64,000 nt of DNA, from NCBI GenBank assembly GCA_016190985.1, contig JACPPI010000007.1:62001-126000 (forward strand), read 5' to 3'. The stretch comes from Opitutia bacterium (GTDB taxonomy: Bacteria > Verrucomicrobiota > Verrucomicrobiia > Opitutales > Opitutaceae). Below, piece by piece: positions 51,272 through 58,402 of the stretch (the stretch's first letter is position 1; every line of letters starts with the position of its first letter). A program made the position numbers and the translations under genes. The notes beneath the pieces were generated by a model, which had not been told where the DNA came from, did not search any database, and worked only from the letters and a program-made list of their open reading frames with translations.

Positions 51272-51796
51272 ATGAATCCACTCCGCCTCATTTCCGTCCT
51301 GGTTGTTGTTGTCGCCCTGATTGCGGGGGCGGTGTTGTTGCGGAATCGACCTGGCCCGGCCGCGGCACAGGGTGCCACAACCGCGCTGCCGGCGCCGGCG
51401 TGGAAACTCAAGGATCTCGACGGCCGCGAGGTCAGCTCCGGCCAGTTCAAGGGCAAGGTGGTCGTGGTCGATTTCTGGGCCACCTGGTGCGGACCGTGCG
51501 TGGAGGAAATCCCCGGCTACATCGCTTTGCAGAAGAAATACGGAGCCGCCGGGCTGGTCGTGGTCGGGGTCTCGCTGGACCGCAAGGGCCCGGCGCACGT
51601 GAAGCAATTCGCCCAGGCCAAGGGCATGAACTACACCCTGGTCATGGGCGACGAGGCCGTGGTCGAGGCCTTTGGCGACTTCCAGGCCATCCCCACGACT
51701 TTTCTGATCAGCCGCGACGGCCGCATCCTGCACCAGAAAACGGGCGGCATGCCGGCCGAGGAATACGAGAAACTGGTCAAGGTGGCGTTGCAGTGA
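51272..51796 (+). CDS. TlpA/ResA-like thioredoxin-fold protein
   Basis: A 174-residue exported thiol-redox protein. An N-terminal membrane anchor or signal (LRLISVLVVVVALIAGAVLL) is followed by a TlpA core with the WCGPC active site in VVVDFWATWCGPCVEEIPG and the cis-Pro loop AIPTTFLISRDG. Such proteins reduce disulfides in the periplasm, for example in cytochrome c maturation. Its stop codon lies only eight bases before the first CRISPR repeat on the same strand. Confidence 0.93.
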   Translation: MNPLRLISVLVVVVALIAGAVLLRNRPGPAAAQGATTALPAPAWKLKDLDGREVSSGQFKGKVVVVDFWATWCGPCVEEIPGYIALQKKYGAAGLVVVGVSLDRKGPAHVKQFAQAKGMNYTLVMGDEAVVEAFGDFQAIPTTFLISRDGRILHQKTGGMPAEEYEKLVKVALQ

Positions 51797-51804
51797 GGCG
51801 ACTG

Positions 51805-52500
51805 GTTCCGGCTAGACCACAGATTCCAAACCGGTAGGCTGTGCAGGCTCTGGCTCAGGAGTTTGGATTAGTTCCGGCTAGACCACAGATTCCAAACCGG
51901 TAGGCTTCGCAGTCTCGCCGATACGACCACCTATGCGTTCCGGCTAGACCACAGATTCCAAACCGGTAGGCTAGAGCCCTTTTAAAGCAGGCGCTGTTCA
52001 GTGTTCCGGCTAGACCACAGATTCCAAACCGGTAGGCTGTCAGGTTCACGCGCATCAACGGGAGAATGGTTCCGGCTAGACCACAGATTCCAAACCGGTA
52101 GGCTGGCCACGAGCACATTGCCCAAATCCCACTTGTTCCGGCTAGACCACAGATTCCAAACCGGTAGGCTTACGAAAGCGAACTGCGCCGCCGCATATAT
52201 GTTCCGGCTAGACCACAGATTCCAAACCGGTAGGCTCGCCTTGCCCGCCGTGCCGAACAGACCGTCGTTCCGGCTAGACCACAGATTCCAAACCGGTAGG
52301 CTTACGAAAGCGAACTGTGCCGCGGCGTATATGTTCCGGCTAGACCACAGATTCCAAACCGGTAGGCTGTCGGCTGCAACTTCAACGTCGAAAGCGGTGT
52401 TCCGGCTAGACCACAGATTCCAAACCGGTAGGCTTATTGTTCCCCCATCACAGATCGGTGGAACGTTCCGGCTAGACCACAGATTCCAAACCGGTAGGCT
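51805..52500 (+). CRISPR. Type II-C CRISPR array, 11 repeats and 10 spacers
   Basis: Eleven identical 36-base repeats (5' end GTTCCGGCTAGACC, 3' end AACCGGTAGGCT) are separated by ten spacers of exactly 30 bases, giving a strict 66-base period. No repeat is degenerate, so neither end is marked as older. The GTT end, and the complementarity of repeat bases 4-26 to the tracrRNA at 57284, make the plus strand the crRNA sense. There is no room for a leader before repeat 1 (8 bp after the tlpA-like stop). Spacers 6 (52171-52200) and 8 (52303-52332) differ at only three positions. Confidence 0.98.
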
Positions 52501-52558
52501 CCAAGTTAAACAACCCGCACGTTGCGTGCGGGTTGTTTAACTTGGAGCGAAATTTTTT
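52501..52558 (+). terminator. Perfect 21-bp hairpin closing the CRISPR array
   Basis: Left arm 52501-52521 and right arm 52525-52545 are perfect inverted copies (CCAAGTTAAACAACCCGCAC...) with a TTG loop, beginning at the base after the last repeat, and followed by AATTTTTTC. It probably ends pre-crRNA transcripts and also lies beyond the cas2 stop codon on the opposite strand. Confidence 0.75.
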
Positions 52559-52571
52559 CAGGCATTTTGGC

Positions 52572-52910
52572 TCAGAAGAGAGTCAATTGATCCGGATTTT
52601 CCCGTTTTCTTCTGCGCATGCCTTCCTCGGTGCCGTGGAAAGTTTTCATCTTCTCGTATTGCCGGTCTGTCACCATGAGGATGTGGATGCGACCGTAACG
52701 GGGGAGGTTTTGTTCAATCTGTTTCGTAAGAGTGTCTGCCATCTCTTTTCCAGAGCAGGCTCGCTGATAGACGGAATATTGCGCCATCTCGAAGCCAAGG
52801 CCGAGCAGGAAATCCCGGAATTCCGTGGCGGCTTTTTGCTTGGCCTTGGAGGTTACGGGCAGGTCGTAGAGAACTTGGAGCCACAAGAGTCGGTAGCCGG
52901 AGAGTTGCAC
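52572..52910 (-). CDS. cas2: CRISPR-associated endonuclease Cas2
   Basis: A 112-residue Cas2 with the conserved Asp at the end of the first strand (WLQVLYDLPVTSKA, Asp16) and the YSVYQRAC and ILMVTDRQYEKM segments of the II-C type. It forms the adaptation complex with Cas1. The gene is the last of the cas operon; cas1 ends 12 bases upstream, and the array-closing hairpin follows its stop codon. Confidence 0.96.
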   Translation of the reverse strand: MQLSGYRLLWLQVLYDLPVTSKAKQKAATEFRDFLLGLGFEMAQYSVYQRACSGKEMADTLTKQIEQNLPRYGRIHILMVTDRQYEKMKTFHGTEEGMRRRKRENPDQLTLF

Positions 52911-52922
52911 CGGGGTTGAAGG

Positions 52923-53819
52923 TTAGCGGCTGGGGAAAAGGGAATCAGGCAGGTCTAGGGTGGCCGCGCCATCAAGCAGGCTGCGGGCGAGGGATTGCGC
53001 CGACGTATGCAAGGCGGTGGCGAGGATGGTGTGGCCGTCGGCCGTCGCCACATCAGCGACGAGAAGTTTGGCGAGAGTGCGCTTGGCCGTGGTGTTCACT
53101 TCGCTCGAGCCCGTGCTCCAAATGGCATGAACCTGGGCGTCAACCAATGGACGGAACGGTTCCATCATGTCGTCGGCGAGCACGAAGGCGTTGGCCTGGT
53201 TGGTGTGATGGAGGCCAAGCGCGGGATAAAGCCCCGCCGCGACCAGCGCCCGCGCCGTGGCGGCGCGCAGCACGGCATAACCGTAGTTCAGCAGGGCGTT
53301 GATGCCGGGGCGGGCGGGATCACGGGTGAAGCCCTCGTCGAAAAGGCCGGCCCAGTAACGCCGCGCCGCCTGGGCTTCGACGTTCTCGGGATCGCCCGAG
53401 CCCACGCGGTGAACCAGCACATCGAGCGTCGGGTCGGGCCGGGTGCAACGGCGCAGGCAGGCGGATTGGTTCTCCACTTTGGCACGGATGATCTGCTGCC
53501 ACAGGCGCTTCTTCAGGGGCTCGCTGGCGCCGATCTGGGCTTCGAGACGCTGGCGATGCAGGTGATGGGAGTCGTAGGGCAGCACCATCGCCTTGGGGTG
53601 ATAGTTGTCGCCGCAGACCACGGCGCAAACCGACCGGTCCGCCAGCGCGGTGATCAGGTTGGTGGAAACCGAATTGCCCGGACCGGAGAAAAGCAGCACG
53701 GCGATGTCGTCCAGCGGCACGCGCCCGGCCTCCTCGCCGGCCTTGTCCACGACCAGGAATCCCCGCTCCAGATGGGCGTGGTTTCCCTGTTCCTGGAGTT
53801 CGACCACCCGGTGAATCAT
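52923..53819 (-). CDS. cas1: CRISPR-associated endonuclease Cas1
   Basis: A 298-residue Cas1, the integrase of spacer acquisition. Metal ligands are the Glu in NVEAQAARRYW (residue 148), His in LGLHHTNQANAFVLADD (about 205) and Asp in ADDMMEPFRPLVD (about 217). Sequence around GPGNSVSTNLITALADRSV is typical of type II Cas1. The start codon overlaps the cas9 stop (ATGA), so the two are translationally coupled. No csn2 or cas4 is present, hence subtype II-C. Confidence 0.97.
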   Translation of the reverse strand: MIHRVVELQEQGNHAHLERGFLVVDKAGEEAGRVPLDDIAVLLFSGPGNSVSTNLITALADRSVCAVVCGDNYHPKAMVLPYDSHHLHRQRLEAQIGASEPLKKRLWQQIIRAKVENQSACLRRCTRPDPTLDVLVHRVGSGDPENVEAQAARRYWAGLFDEGFTRDPARPGINALLNYGYAVLRAATARALVAAGLYPALGLHHTNQANAFVLADDMMEPFRPLVDAQVHAIWSTGSSEVNTTAKRTLAKLLVADVATADGHTILATALHTSAQSLARSLLDGAATLDLPDSLFPSR

Positions 53820-56800
53820 TTGAGCGGTCCCGGATCACGCACGTCGCCTATCGGATCAACATGAACGAGGCGGGTCTCAGTTTTTAAGATGCGCCCAAAC
53901 GCGATATTCCATTTTCGCCCCTTGGTGGATGAAGTGTGCTCAAAGCACCATAGTTGCTGGTTATCCTCTGACGGGGCGATGCTGCTTACCCATACAACAC
54001 GCGTCTCTCCGCCGAGCTTCGTCAGCAGGGTGTCATGTTTGTGGACAGTGAACAAAAGCTGCGCTGCTGGATGCGGGCGCATACCGCGATAAACCCAGAT
54101 TCCATGCCGACGGTGCCAGACTTCGTCATGTGCGGGTCTGCCATTGGGCGGGAAAACTTTTGTCGCTTCAAAAAGATTAAGGGCCACGCCGGTGACGGCG
54201 CCGTCTGGCAGCCGCCAAAACGTTATACAGTGGACGCCTCCTGGAATGACGGAGCGCTCCATTGCCTGTCCGGCATGAGGTAACGGAATACTGGCTTTCT
54301 TTTTGACGAGGCGCACCGTGCGCACATGTGTCGCTTGTGCAAAGGCATGAAGCGCGCCCAGACGCGCCTTCCGTTCACTAACGGTCTCCTGTTTGCCTGC
54401 CGGCTTTGGCACGTCAGCAAGGCAAGCGGCCAGACGCTCACGCAGTTTCCGGTCTCTGACACAGCCCGTGGTGGTGCTGCTCACATCGAGGTGGGCATGT
54501 CTGATCTCATCGAGCTTCACTCGATAAACCAGATCATATTCGTGCTCCTGTTCCCAACCGCGCTCCTTGCGCCACGCGCCGTGGCTCTCGTCGTCTGGAA
54601 TTGGGCGAACCGGGCCGTAGAACTTATCTTCGTGAAGGCCGCCGGCGGGGTTGTGATCGGGTCGATGCGACACGACGATTTTCGCGACAGCGGCCGCGAC
54701 TTCCGCACGGAACTTGCTCTTGGCCTCGGAGACTGCTGTCTCACAGGTTACGTCGTGAATCATCGGCCACGGCGCAGGAATCACAATTCCATGCAAGCTG
54801 TCGTTTTGATTGGCGAGCGTGATGCGCTGAAGTGTGGTCCGGTCGGCAAGCGCGACGACAAGTGCATCTATCGCATGATGCCGGTGGTCGGAGCGATTCT
54901 TCCCGATACGGTCGGGATCGTCTTCCGGTGCTAGAATTGTTTCCAGTCCCCAATGATGCCGGAGCAGTGCGGTCAGGCGTCCTGGATAAACGTTTACCTG
55001 GTGCTCGGGACAAATCGTGGTGAGGTAGCGACGCGCAGCCTTGCTGAGGTGACGCGTGTCATGGAGTTGCTTGGCGGAGAACTCTTCCGTGTTGAATTTC
55101 TCCATCGCGTCGGGGCCGAAACGCCAAAGTTTGTTCGGTGGCAACAGCGCGGCGAGCTGCTCGATGCGCGACCACTCGGGGCTAGTGCCGAATGCCTCGA
55201 ATGGTGAACGCTTACGTTTGATGCGATTAGCGTCGCGAAAACAGAGCACTTTGTTCGCAGGCGAGTCATCACGGGTAAGGGCGAACGGCAGGATATGATC
55301 GACCTCGATTTGATCTGAAAACAGAATTTTCAGCGGAATGTTGCGACCCGTGTAGGGACAAAAATGCGAGGCACCATCTTGCTGTTCCTCCCACAGACGG
55401 AGACGGAGGCGGTTGTCATAGTCGGTCGCCAGGTCGAGGTCTTGTTCCTTTGCAATCTGTTCGATGCGTTGGTCGCGCGCCTCGTTCAACTTTTTATTTT
55501 CGGTCTGCTGCTCATCCACTTTGCGTCGCGCTTCGCGACTGAGTTTCAGGTCACGGGTAATTTCGAGCGAGATTTGCGCGGGCTTGCCATGCTTTCTGAT
55601 GAGCGTGTTGACGACGACACGGAGTTGGTTGAGCGCGATGTGGACCGTCGGATTCGGAAAGCGGCCGAATTCGCGTTCCTCCCGCATCCGCATGGAGGCC
55701 TTGCTTTCATCGGTATCGAGCAGTGGAAACTGATTTCCCAAGACTCGCACGCAAGACTCTGGCATGGCTTGGCCGTAGTAAGGCAGTTCAGGTGCGCTTC
55801 CATCGGCGGGAACGAGGGGATCGACAAAATCGAGCTTCTTGCTCAACGAGACGACGGCCTCAGTGTATGAGATGCCTTCGGGCTGCCCGATACCCGCTTC
55901 CAACTCGGGCACGATATGATGGAGGAATCTCTGACTAAACGGAGCGAAGCCGAGAGGAAACTTCTTGGCAGGCAGATCGGCGAGTGCTTGAGCGGCCTCG
56001 GGAGAAAGGCCCCATTCTGCCTCGGCGTAAGCGCGAACCTGATCGGCCTGCTCAGTGTCGAGGAGCCTCGCGACAATGGCATCACGCTCGGTGAGAGTCA
56101 GCTTGTGCCATCTACCGCCGAAAATGTTTTTTGCCGACATTTGTTTGCCGACCCTGTCGCCTTCGAGTTTCTCGCGCTTTTTAGATTCAATCGTGAAGCG
56201 AGACTCTTCGGGTAGGCGGAGCTTCGTGCGCAGGGAGCTGAACTTGACTTCGGCTTGGCAGCGCAAGACCTCGAGAACCGTTGCGCGCTGTCTGGCATCC
56301 AGACGTTGCACGGGATCGAGCGGCGTGTTGCGATAACGGAGATGACACGCGTCGCTCAGAATCTGAAATTCCTGGAAACTGGCGAGGGCAAGGCGGGCAC
56401 GCGGGAGTGGTTTGCCGTCGGCATCCTTTAGGAAACGGCATCCACCGCGGGACTGTGGTCGGAGCGGAAGCTGATTGAAGATGATGTCACGAAGCACCCG
56501 CCAGTCGGCGGCGCTGATTTTCTGGTGCGGGGCCTGCGCTGTGTTTATTGCGGCGAATTCGTCCGCATACATTTGCCGTGTCGGATAGAACGCGAATTTC
56601 TCGCTCTTCGGTTTGTGCTCTTCGGGGCGAAAGCGGATGCTCTCGCGTTTGTATGACTTCGAATCGACCGCTAGCCGGTTCCGCTCTGCTTCCAACCGCT
56701 GGTGGAGAAGTTGGCCCAGCGTGGACGAGCCTAGTTCGGATTTAAGGCGCTCAATGCCGAAGCCGGTTGTCTGGGCCTCGTCGTCATCGCCCGCAAGGCG

Positions 56801-57208
56801 ATTGCTCTTGAATCCACGGCGCTTCGCCAGATGCAAAAGCGCGCGGCCGAGATGCCACGGATGGAGCGCTCCGTCGAGGGCCTTAGCACGAAGCTCGTAG
56901 GGATCGAGGGTCGCGAGATTGCGCCGAGCGATTTGGTCCGTCTCGTCGGGAAACAGACCGAGGGAAGTTAGGCTTGTGAGCAACTTGGTGCGTCGCGCGA
57001 GAAAGCGCTCACGGCGCACGCGTTGACCGCGAGCCTTAGTGCGGGCTGCTGCGAGCGACTCGCCGGTTTTCGGGATGCGTCCATCGGAGAAGATGCGCGA
57101 ACCCATACGGCGAATGGCGACGGGGCGGCCTGTGGCGTCGAGGTCCATCATCGCCCAGCCGATGGAGTTGGTGCCGAGGTCGAGGCCGAGACGGTAGGGT
57201 GTGCTCAT
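53816..57208 (-). CDS. cas9: Cas9 endonuclease, type II-C
   Basis: An 1130-residue Cas9 with all catalytic parts. RuvC-I is YRLGLDLGTNSIGWAM (Asp10); the Arg-rich bridge helix covers residues 52-76; RuvC-II is ISLEITRDLK (Glu549); HNH is IEVDHILPFALT (Asp637, His638) with a following Asn in FRDANRIK; RuvC-III is SDHRHHAIDALVVAL (His778, Asp781). The C-terminal wedge/PAM-interacting region runs from about 870 to the end. The size and gene order fit the compact II-C group. The PAM cannot be read from sequence. ATG 57208 directly precedes RuvC-I. Confidence 0.98.
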   Translation of the reverse strand: MSTPYRLGLDLGTNSIGWAMMDLDATGRPVAIRRMGSRIFSDGRIPKTGESLAAARTKARGQRVRRERFLARRTKLLTSLTSLGLFPDETDQIARRNLATLDPYELRAKALDGALHPWHLGRALLHLAKRRGFKSNRLAGDDDEAQTTGFGIERLKSELGSSTLGQLLHQRLEAERNRLAVDSKSYKRESIRFRPEEHKPKSEKFAFYPTRQMYADEFAAINTAQAPHQKISAADWRVLRDIIFNQLPLRPQSRGGCRFLKDADGKPLPRARLALASFQEFQILSDACHLRYRNTPLDPVQRLDARQRATVLEVLRCQAEVKFSSLRTKLRLPEESRFTIESKKREKLEGDRVGKQMSAKNIFGGRWHKLTLTERDAIVARLLDTEQADQVRAYAEAEWGLSPEAAQALADLPAKKFPLGFAPFSQRFLHHIVPELEAGIGQPEGISYTEAVVSLSKKLDFVDPLVPADGSAPELPYYGQAMPESCVRVLGNQFPLLDTDESKASMRMREEREFGRFPNPTVHIALNQLRVVVNTLIRKHGKPAQISLEITRDLKLSREARRKVDEQQTENKKLNEARDQRIEQIAKEQDLDLATDYDNRLRLRLWEEQQDGASHFCPYTGRNIPLKILFSDQIEVDHILPFALTRDDSPANKVLCFRDANRIKRKRSPFEAFGTSPEWSRIEQLAALLPPNKLWRFGPDAMEKFNTEEFSAKQLHDTRHLSKAARRYLTTICPEHQVNVYPGRLTALLRHHWGLETILAPEDDPDRIGKNRSDHRHHAIDALVVALADRTTLQRITLANQNDSLHGIVIPAPWPMIHDVTCETAVSEAKSKFRAEVAAAVAKIVVSHRPDHNPAGGLHEDKFYGPVRPIPDDESHGAWRKERGWEQEHEYDLVYRVKLDEIRHAHLDVSSTTTGCVRDRKLRERLAACLADVPKPAGKQETVSERKARLGALHAFAQATHVRTVRLVKKKASIPLPHAGQAMERSVIPGGVHCITFWRLPDGAVTGVALNLFEATKVFPPNGRPAHDEVWHRRHGIWVYRGMRPHPAAQLLFTVHKHDTLLTKLGGETRVVWVSSIAPSEDNQQLWCFEHTSSTKGRKWNIAFGRILKTETRLVHVDPIGDVRDPGPLK

Positions 57209-57283
57209 AAAGTGGAATGAGAAAACGGGCTTGAAAATAACACCGGTTGATTCTGAGTGGAGGCGTTACCAGTCAGTTCTGCA

Positions 57284-57366
57284 TTTGGAATCTGTGGTCT
57301 AGCCGGTAACAAGCGCGCAAGCGCACCAGATTGAAGCCTCGGCTACGGCCGGGGTTTCCTGCTTTT
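57284..57366 (+). ncRNA. tracrRNA
   Basis: The anti-repeat (57284-57310) contains 23 contiguous bases complementary to repeat positions 4-26, followed by a one-base bulge and AAC pairing with the repeat's GTT. Downstream, GCGC-GCAA-GCGC forms a nexus stem with a GNRA tetraloop, and CCTCGGC-TACG-GCCGGGG a 7-bp stem followed by TTTCCTGCTTTT, as in a terminator. It is transcribed away from cas9 from a shared 75-bp promoter region; the exact 5' end is unknown. Confidence 0.88.
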
Positions 57367-57367
57367 G

Positions 57368-57390
57368 GGGCGGCAGCAAAACTGCCGCCC
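57368..57390 (+). terminator. Extra hairpin after the tracrRNA
   Basis: GGGCGGCAG-CAAAA-CTGCCGCCC, a perfect 9-bp stem that directly follows the tracrRNA T-run; it could be a further tracrRNA stem or a back-up terminator. Confidence 0.45.
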
Positions 57391-57517
57391 GCTGCATTTG
57401 CCGGGAGGGATTCATGGTTGTGGCCCCGGGGCTTTCTGCGGGATAAAGACGCCCGGGTCAACGGCGCTCCGGGGGCTTTGGGTTTGTGCCGGCGGGGTGG
57501 GCGGGTTTGCTCCGCTC

Positions 57518-58402
57518 ATGAAGTTCAACGCCGTCCTGCTCCTGCCCCTCGCCTGCGCGCTGACCTATGTGCTGGGGGCGCTGGCGGTGAAGCGCGCCAC
57601 CGCGTTCGGCGTCGGCATCTGGCGCACGAGTTTCCTCTCCAATGTGGCGATTGCGCTGCTGTTTGTGCCCGTGTGGCTCGGGTATGGCGGGCAGGTCCAT
57701 CCGCTGGCGGACTACTGGCAGCCGGCCGTGACGGCGCTGTGCTTTCTGGGCGGACAGGCACTCACGTTCCTCGCCCTCAGCCGCGGCGATGTTTCCGTCA
57801 CGACGCCGGTCATGGGCACCAAGGTGATCCTGGTGGCGCTGTTCAGCAGCCTGCTGCGGGTGGGTGAGGTGCCGTTGCAATGGTGGATCGGGGCAGCGCT
57901 GAGCACGGCGGCCATCGCGTTGCTGCACCTCGGCGGAGAGTCGCGGCAACGCCACGTCGGGCGGACCGTGCTGCTCGCTTTCGGCAGCGCGGCCTCCTTC
58001 AGCCTCGGCGATGTCCTGATGCAGAAGTGGGTGCCGGTTTGGGGCCTCGGCAATTATTTCCCGCCGATGTTCCTGCTCGTCGCGCTGCTGTCGTGCGCCT
58101 TCGTGCCGTTTTTCCACGCGCCGCTGTCGGCGATGCCCGCCGCCGCGTGGCGCTGGGTGGGGCCGGGGGCGCTGTTGCTGGCGGTCAACAACGCCGGCGT
58201 GGTGCTGGCGATCATGCTCGTGGGCAGCGCCACGGTGGTGAACATCATCTACAGCGTGCGCGGGCTGTTTAGCGTGCTGTTGGTCTGGCTGATCGGCCAC
58301 TGGTTCACCAACGACGAGAAGCACCTCGGCGGCCGCGTGCTGCGGTTCCGCTTCACTGGCGCCGTGCTGATGGTGGCGGCGATCGTGCTGGTCCTGGTGT
58401 AG
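57518..58402 (+). CDS. DMT/EamA superfamily transporter
   Basis: A 294-residue membrane protein with nine or ten hydrophobic segments and the two-repeat EamA layout (N-terminal half ending near LLHLGGES, second half from VLLAFGSAASFSLGDVLM). GGQALTFLALSRGDVSVTTPVMGTKVIL carries the repeat's conserved small-residue pattern. Likely a metabolite exporter; substrate unknown. The ATG at 57518 is about 150 bases after the tracrRNA end. Confidence 0.87.
   Translation: MKFNAVLLLPLACALTYVLGALAVKRATAFGVGIWRTSFLSNVAIALLFVPVWLGYGGQVHPLADYWQPAVTALCFLGGQALTFLALSRGDVSVTTPVMGTKVILVALFSSLLRVGEVPLQWWIGAALSTAAIALLHLGGESRQRHVGRTVLLAFGSAASFSLGDVLMQKWVPVWGLGNYFPPMFLLVALLSCAFVPFFHAPLSAMPAAAWRWVGPGALLLAVNNAGVVLAIMLVGSATVVNIIYSVRGLFSVLLVWLIGHWFTNDEKHLGGRVLRFRFTGAVLMVAAIVLVLV

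Follow-up and report, generated by a model that had tools for sequence, protein, structure and literature searches.

Near-identical spacers with silent differences in a type II-C-like CRISPR array of an Opitutaceae bacterium

Results and discussion

A type II CRISPR-Cas locus

The window, i.e., the whole stretch of 64,000 nucleotides analyzed here, taken from the genome of a bacterium of the Opitutaceae, contains a CRISPR array next to a compact set of cas genes. The array was delimited by repeat parsing and its strand was set from the anti-repeat. The elements of the locus are the following:

51805..52500, plus strand (crRNA strand): CRISPR array of 11 identical 36-nt repeats and ten 30-nt spacers
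52572..52910, minus strand: cas2 (TIGR01573, E 4.2e-19)
52923..53819, minus strand: cas1 of type II (TIGR03639 cas1_NMENI, E 1.5e-74)
53816..57208, minus strand: cas9, 1130 aa (TIGR01865, E 3.5e-145)
57284..57306, plus strand: tracrRNA anti-repeat, 23 bases, the exact complement (23/23) of repeat positions 4-26

The matches to TIGR01865, TIGR03639, and TIGR01573 are all above the cut-offs of these profiles. The presence of Cas9, of a type II Cas1, and of Cas2, together with an anti-repeat complementary to the repeat and located on the far side of cas9 from the array, identifies the locus as a type II CRISPR-Cas system. Subtype II-C is marked by an operon that lacks a fourth adaptation gene such as csn2 or cas4. 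Here the genes cas9, cas1, and cas2 are contiguous and the array adjoins cas2, from which it is separated by 71 bases. We regard the subtype as type II-C-like. The tracrRNA is predicted to extend rightwards from the anti-repeat at 57284-57306, and the fold of the putative tracrRNA region (57280-57420) has a z of -3.25. Given this anti-repeat, the plus strand was taken as the crRNA strand. In Cas9 systems the PAM generally lies beyond the 3' end of the protospacer when this is read on the crRNA strand, so the PAM side corresponds to the 3' end of the spacers as written here. Type II-C arrays typically have a promoter in every repeat; a scan of 51780-52600 that was limited to sigma-70 promoters gave no match to the consensus. 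A search with Rfam over 51500-57800 returned nothing above gathering scores.

Two spacers that differ at silent positions

Two of the ten spacers are near-duplicates of each other:

52171..52200, plus strand: spacer 6, probably the older of the pair under the type II-C rule of spacer addition (passages in PMC12080349)
52303..52332, plus strand: spacer 8, probably the newer of the pair under the same rule

These spacers are identical at 27 of 30 bases and differ only at positions 16 (C/T), 22 (C/G), and 25 (A/G), which share one codon phase, exactly as described in the initial annotation of this DNA. Such likeness is far beyond chance: among 1,397,022 between-locus spacer pairs (see the survey below), compared in register, the best same-strand likeness was 20/30 (six pairs) and the best opposite-strand likeness was 22/30 (once). 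When read from the second base, spacers 6 and 8 both encode TKANCAAAY, which agrees with the silent changes already proposed for the pair. The pair had also been said to reveal the coding strand and the frame of the target. This is not the case, since on the opposite strand, read from its first base, both spacers encode IYAAAQFAFV. On each strand there is thus one frame in which the three differences are silent. The third positions of these two frames coincide, and the pair fixes neither the strand nor the frame of the target.

How often would such a pattern arise by chance? Three random substitutions leave the translation of at least one open frame unchanged in 5.7% of the cases, a value that rises to 6.5% when the simulation includes a transition bias. 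If the types of base change that were observed are kept, 11.2% of the simulated pairs are all-silent. With a chance probability of 5.7 to 11%, the window pair taken alone is weak evidence, i.e., suggestive, not strong.

Near-duplicate spacers in type II arrays of the phylum

We assembled a set of loci from Cas9 hits in the phylum, of which a subset was fetched, giving 123 stretches and, with the window, 124 loci. Arrays were found at 93 of these loci (window included). By repeat length, 94 of the 96 arrays are type II-like, and these 94 comprise 1,688 spacers. One array, that of L106 (12717-18160), was split by the parsing script into three pieces, which together hold 84 repeats; the split occurs where two repeats seem to abut without a spacer. 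Spacer 5 of its second piece is identical over 23/23 bases to positions 2833-2855 of L135, which comes from another genome of the phylum and may be a protospacer in a mobile element. At the level of the family, 9 of the 180 genomes searched (our own included) have a Cas9-like match, and only one of these nine matches, in a genome of the same genus (G015, the sister genome in what follows), could be aligned over the whole length, with 51% identity. The sister genome has an array of 19 repeats with a spacer pair of its own, whose single difference can be silent.

Only 27 of the 26,806 within-locus pairs were above the likeness limit: 13 are identical, 9 are in register and non-identical, 3 are shifted on the same strand, and 2 are on opposite strands. 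An additional identical pair in L092, seen on separate inspection, is missing from this list. In L168, spacers 25-27 recur in the same order as spacers 28-30, apparently a segmental block duplication within the array. The nine in-register non-identical pairs are the window pair (6/8), L025 7/13, L075 3/28, L080 16/35, L094 19/24, L098 15/25, L105 36/39, L144 1/16, and L148 26/42.

Seven of these nine pairs are all-silent in some frame, against 5.1 expected (P 0.023), and when all nine are pooled, the best frame renders 16 of the 18 differences silent (null 11.5, P 0.002). The five pairs with a single difference are almost powerless because their null is 0.85 to 1.0. The four pairs with at least two differences give 11 silent differences out of 13 (null 6.7, P 0.002). 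The window pair was chosen for its pattern and was hence also left out of the tests, in which case 8 out of 10 differences are silent (null 5.0, P 0.016). The best case is L080 16/35, where the four differences are all in one phase and all silent in one frame, which ends in a stop codon. Against this, the differences of L148 26/42 are not all silent, and one change at the edge of L098 15/25 is not silent. Two weaker pairs, L075 49/50 (22/30) and L140 12/25 (20/30), are in register, fall below the score limit, and are absent from the nine-pair and four-pair tests. By themselves they show no silent excess (P 0.34 and P 0.91, respectively). When they are added to the four multi-difference pairs the excess has a P of 0.025, and of 0.077 if the window pair is also removed. 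The near-duplicate spacers in the surveyed arrays lean to silent changes with a modest excess, and the phenomenon is somewhat more general than the sequence of the window alone could show. The initial annotation held that the array keeps evidence of selection on the target protein; what stands of this is the modest silent excess, based on three changes here and on a small survey.

Search for the target

The check proposed for these spacers, a search of viral data with both sequences and with the peptide, was carried out, and it returned no protospacer in the viral, phage, and plasmid sets. The full peptide patterns of both strands had no match in IMG/VR, and the two-strand wobble pattern had none in the GTDB genome collection. 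In BLAST searches of both spacers against phage and plasmid records, the matches listed (best 20 of 48, 6 of 6, best 8 of 378, and best 8 of 22 records) were partial, with E 0.4 or worse and in unrelated genes. No protospacer was found in the bacterium's own genome, nor among the 282 genomes searched as relatives (own included). The one match outside the own genome among these 282, to a peptidase U32 (L003), is chance-like, as a control search with the pattern reversed yielded one match too.

A pattern of the 16-base core is present in nine IMG/VR contigs. Compared with the nearer spacer, eight of them have 8 to 10 mismatches and the other (L010) has more than 11. These contigs do not look like one family and we treated them as chance matches. 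Peptides recorded in this search are YAAAQLAF in a 958-aa frame of L007 (at a guess by eye, a primase-helicase), YAAAQFAF in an 816-aa frame of L006, YAAAHFAF in a 178-aa frame of L013, and, in both L008 and L009, NAKWAAAYL within frames of roughly 150 aa, which look by eye like lytic transglycosylases.

We extended the searches to other spacers. The pairs of the sister genome, of L080, and of L098, as well as spacers 4 and 7 of the window, had no match in IMG/VR, and the spacers of L080 and L098 had none in phages. With the whole array as query, phages yielded short matches and plasmids six records, including a Limnohabitans plasmid (E 0.004, 71% identity over pieces) that is probably a repeat-like match. 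The invaders of this lineage may be missing from the databases sampled so far.

Origin of the pair

The initial annotation proposed that the two spacers were captured from different alleles of one viral or plasmid gene. A coding region captured twice, each time from a different allele, does fit the data best, considering the unmutated repeats (see below) and the similar pairs in the sister genome and in the phylum. The viral or plasmid nature of the source is presumed, as the searches returned no protospacer. Overall, we find it probable that a single protospacer was captured on two separate occasions, as spacer 6 and as spacer 8, from two alleles of an invader gene, and that the differences between these alleles are silent.

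The pair might also come from two captures of a homologous region in which there is no selection at the protein level, either because it is non-coding or because it is read in another frame, the silence then being due to chance. The chance probability of 5.7 to 11% for this pair leaves room for such a scenario, and the other multi-difference pairs speak against it because they lean silent too, though the lean weakens to the P of 0.077 given above when the weaker pairs are in and the window pair is out. We consider this scenario unlikely.

Alternatively, one of the two spacers could be an in-array copy of the other that later acquired three point mutations. Duplication within arrays is a real process: identical in-register pairs are common (13 of the 27 listed pairs) and some form clear blocks, like the one in L168. 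If the pair were a mutated duplicate, however, repeats of similar age should be mutated too, and they are not. In the window, not one of the 324 inner repeat bases is changed, compared with 3 of the 60 spacer bases (Fisher P 0.004). The same holds for L080 (0/1,764 against 4 changes per 60 spacer bases, Fisher P 1e-6), L098 (0/972 against 4 per 60, Fisher P 1e-5), and L148 (0/2,016 against 2 per 60, Fisher P 8e-4). The differences between the spacers thus most likely predate their capture. Moreover, there is no reason for mutations arising in place to be silent, and duplication followed by mutation is very unlikely to explain the pair. Finally, the sampling of two paralogous gene copies in a single invader genome, instead of alleles of related invaders, is contradicted by nothing in the array, but it has no positive evidence in its favor and seems highly improbable, as 30-mers that are identical but for a silent difference would be more usual between related phages.

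Probable order of capture and possible re-sampling of the same site

In type II-C systems, the repeat through which new spacers enter is the last one on the transcribed strand, a mode of addition that the array studied here would share with those of the survey by Feussner et al. (passages in PMC12080349). The last-repeat end is the cas2 side. In this flank the sister genome carries a hairpin of the same kind, and the remaining flanks show no apparent resemblance. By the rule of last-repeat addition, spacer 8 would be newer than spacer 6. Counted from the PAM side, the differences between the two are at distances of 6, 9, and 15 bases. Pairing by Cas9 is usually strict near the PAM side, where the first two of these differences fall, so the crRNA of spacer 6 is expected to act poorly on the variant. 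Separate captures from two alleles would then have unfolded as follows. Spacer 6 would have been captured first from an invader, and a related invader would have arrived later with three silent differences in the same protein-coding region. The crRNA of spacer 6 would have acted poorly on this variant, and the same 30-base protospacer would have been captured afresh as spacer 8. We infer the order, the escape, and the viral or plasmid source of the protospacer. Re-capture after escape and capture from a co-circulating relative both fit.

Feussner et al. also report, in the passages cited, that the oldest repeat tends to mutate (PMC12080349), and it does likewise in two of the four arrays checked here (L080 and L098). 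In the type II-C system of Flavobacterium columnare, new spacers are drawn from a limited pool of protospacers and the non-unique ones peak around an existing matching spacer (passages in PMC8092290, where 1,528 PAM sites were counted for the phage). Taking about 1,500 PAM sites and our 26,806 pairs, a rough estimate gives about 18 in-register repeats if the spacers of each array all derive from one invader family, and fewer otherwise. We observed 22 in-register pairs (13 identical and 9 not), although some of the identical ones are array duplications, e.g., L168 25-30. This points to favored sites or to guided re-capture, and the data fit both. In type II primed adaptation following Cas9 cleavage, new spacers cluster near the site that is already targeted. 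Priming from cut ends gives spacers near the site, whereas the register of the window pair is identical to the base. One could imagine that Cas9 with an imperfectly matching crRNA holds the old site and marks the exact protospacer, such that an outdated spacer is updated in register and not by chance re-sampling. We regard such guided updating as distinctly unlikely; if it took place, the in-register near-duplicates would be its products.

Comparison with known systems

The closest parallels come from F. columnare, whose system is of type II-C and for which a limited protospacer pool, a peak of non-unique captures near an existing spacer, and protospacer changes in co-evolving phages are reported (passages in PMC8092290 and PMC5524643). 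Its phages are known, whereas the protospacers of the window pair were not found in the databases searched. The four most specific protospacer changes reported in the passages of PMC5524643 are non-synonymous, whereas the differences of the window pair are silent, which counts against the reading of the pair as silent alleles. The array of F. columnare is placed between cas9 and cas1/cas2 (PMC5524643, passages cited), whereas here cas9, cas1, and cas2 are contiguous. Escape and mismatched spacers have been described in other systems (passages in PMC6452269 and PMC6452263), and two independent captures of one protospacer are known in a type I-C system (passages in PMC5071653). Among the entries listed in our search of titles and beginnings of abstracts, with narrow terms on near-identical, mismatched, or synonymous spacers, none deals with near-identical spacers of a single array that differ silently.

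The finding is an ordinary episode of the arms race between CRISPR hosts and invaders, neatly recorded and well explained by known biology. Even when the invader is not known, near-duplicate spacers within an array can serve as an ordered pair of its alleles. With more such pairs, arrays alone would suffice to measure the selection that acts on genes of unknown invaders, and one could also test whether type II-C systems re-sample favored or previously matched sites.

A hairpin at the end of the array

The end of the array on the cas2 side is marked by an additional element:

52498..52548, plus strand: perfect hairpin of 24 bp that takes in the final 3 bases of the last repeat

A run of T starts four bases after it. 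The hairpin is not among the terminators listed by a terminator scan. In the type II-C survey of Feussner et al. (passages in PMC12080349), terminators are found upstream of the array, whereas here the hairpin lies downstream and adjoins the last repeat. A hairpin of this shape is also present at the same end of the array in the sister genome (L025, just before 9003), where the stem is different but fully paired. A perfect stem of at least 11 near one end was found in 15 of the 94 surveyed arrays. Leaving out L076, where the stem contains a copy of the repeat, and L134, which has a run of N, the remaining 13 stems all lie 3' of the array on the crRNA strand, an assignment made by eye on the basis of the repeat ends.
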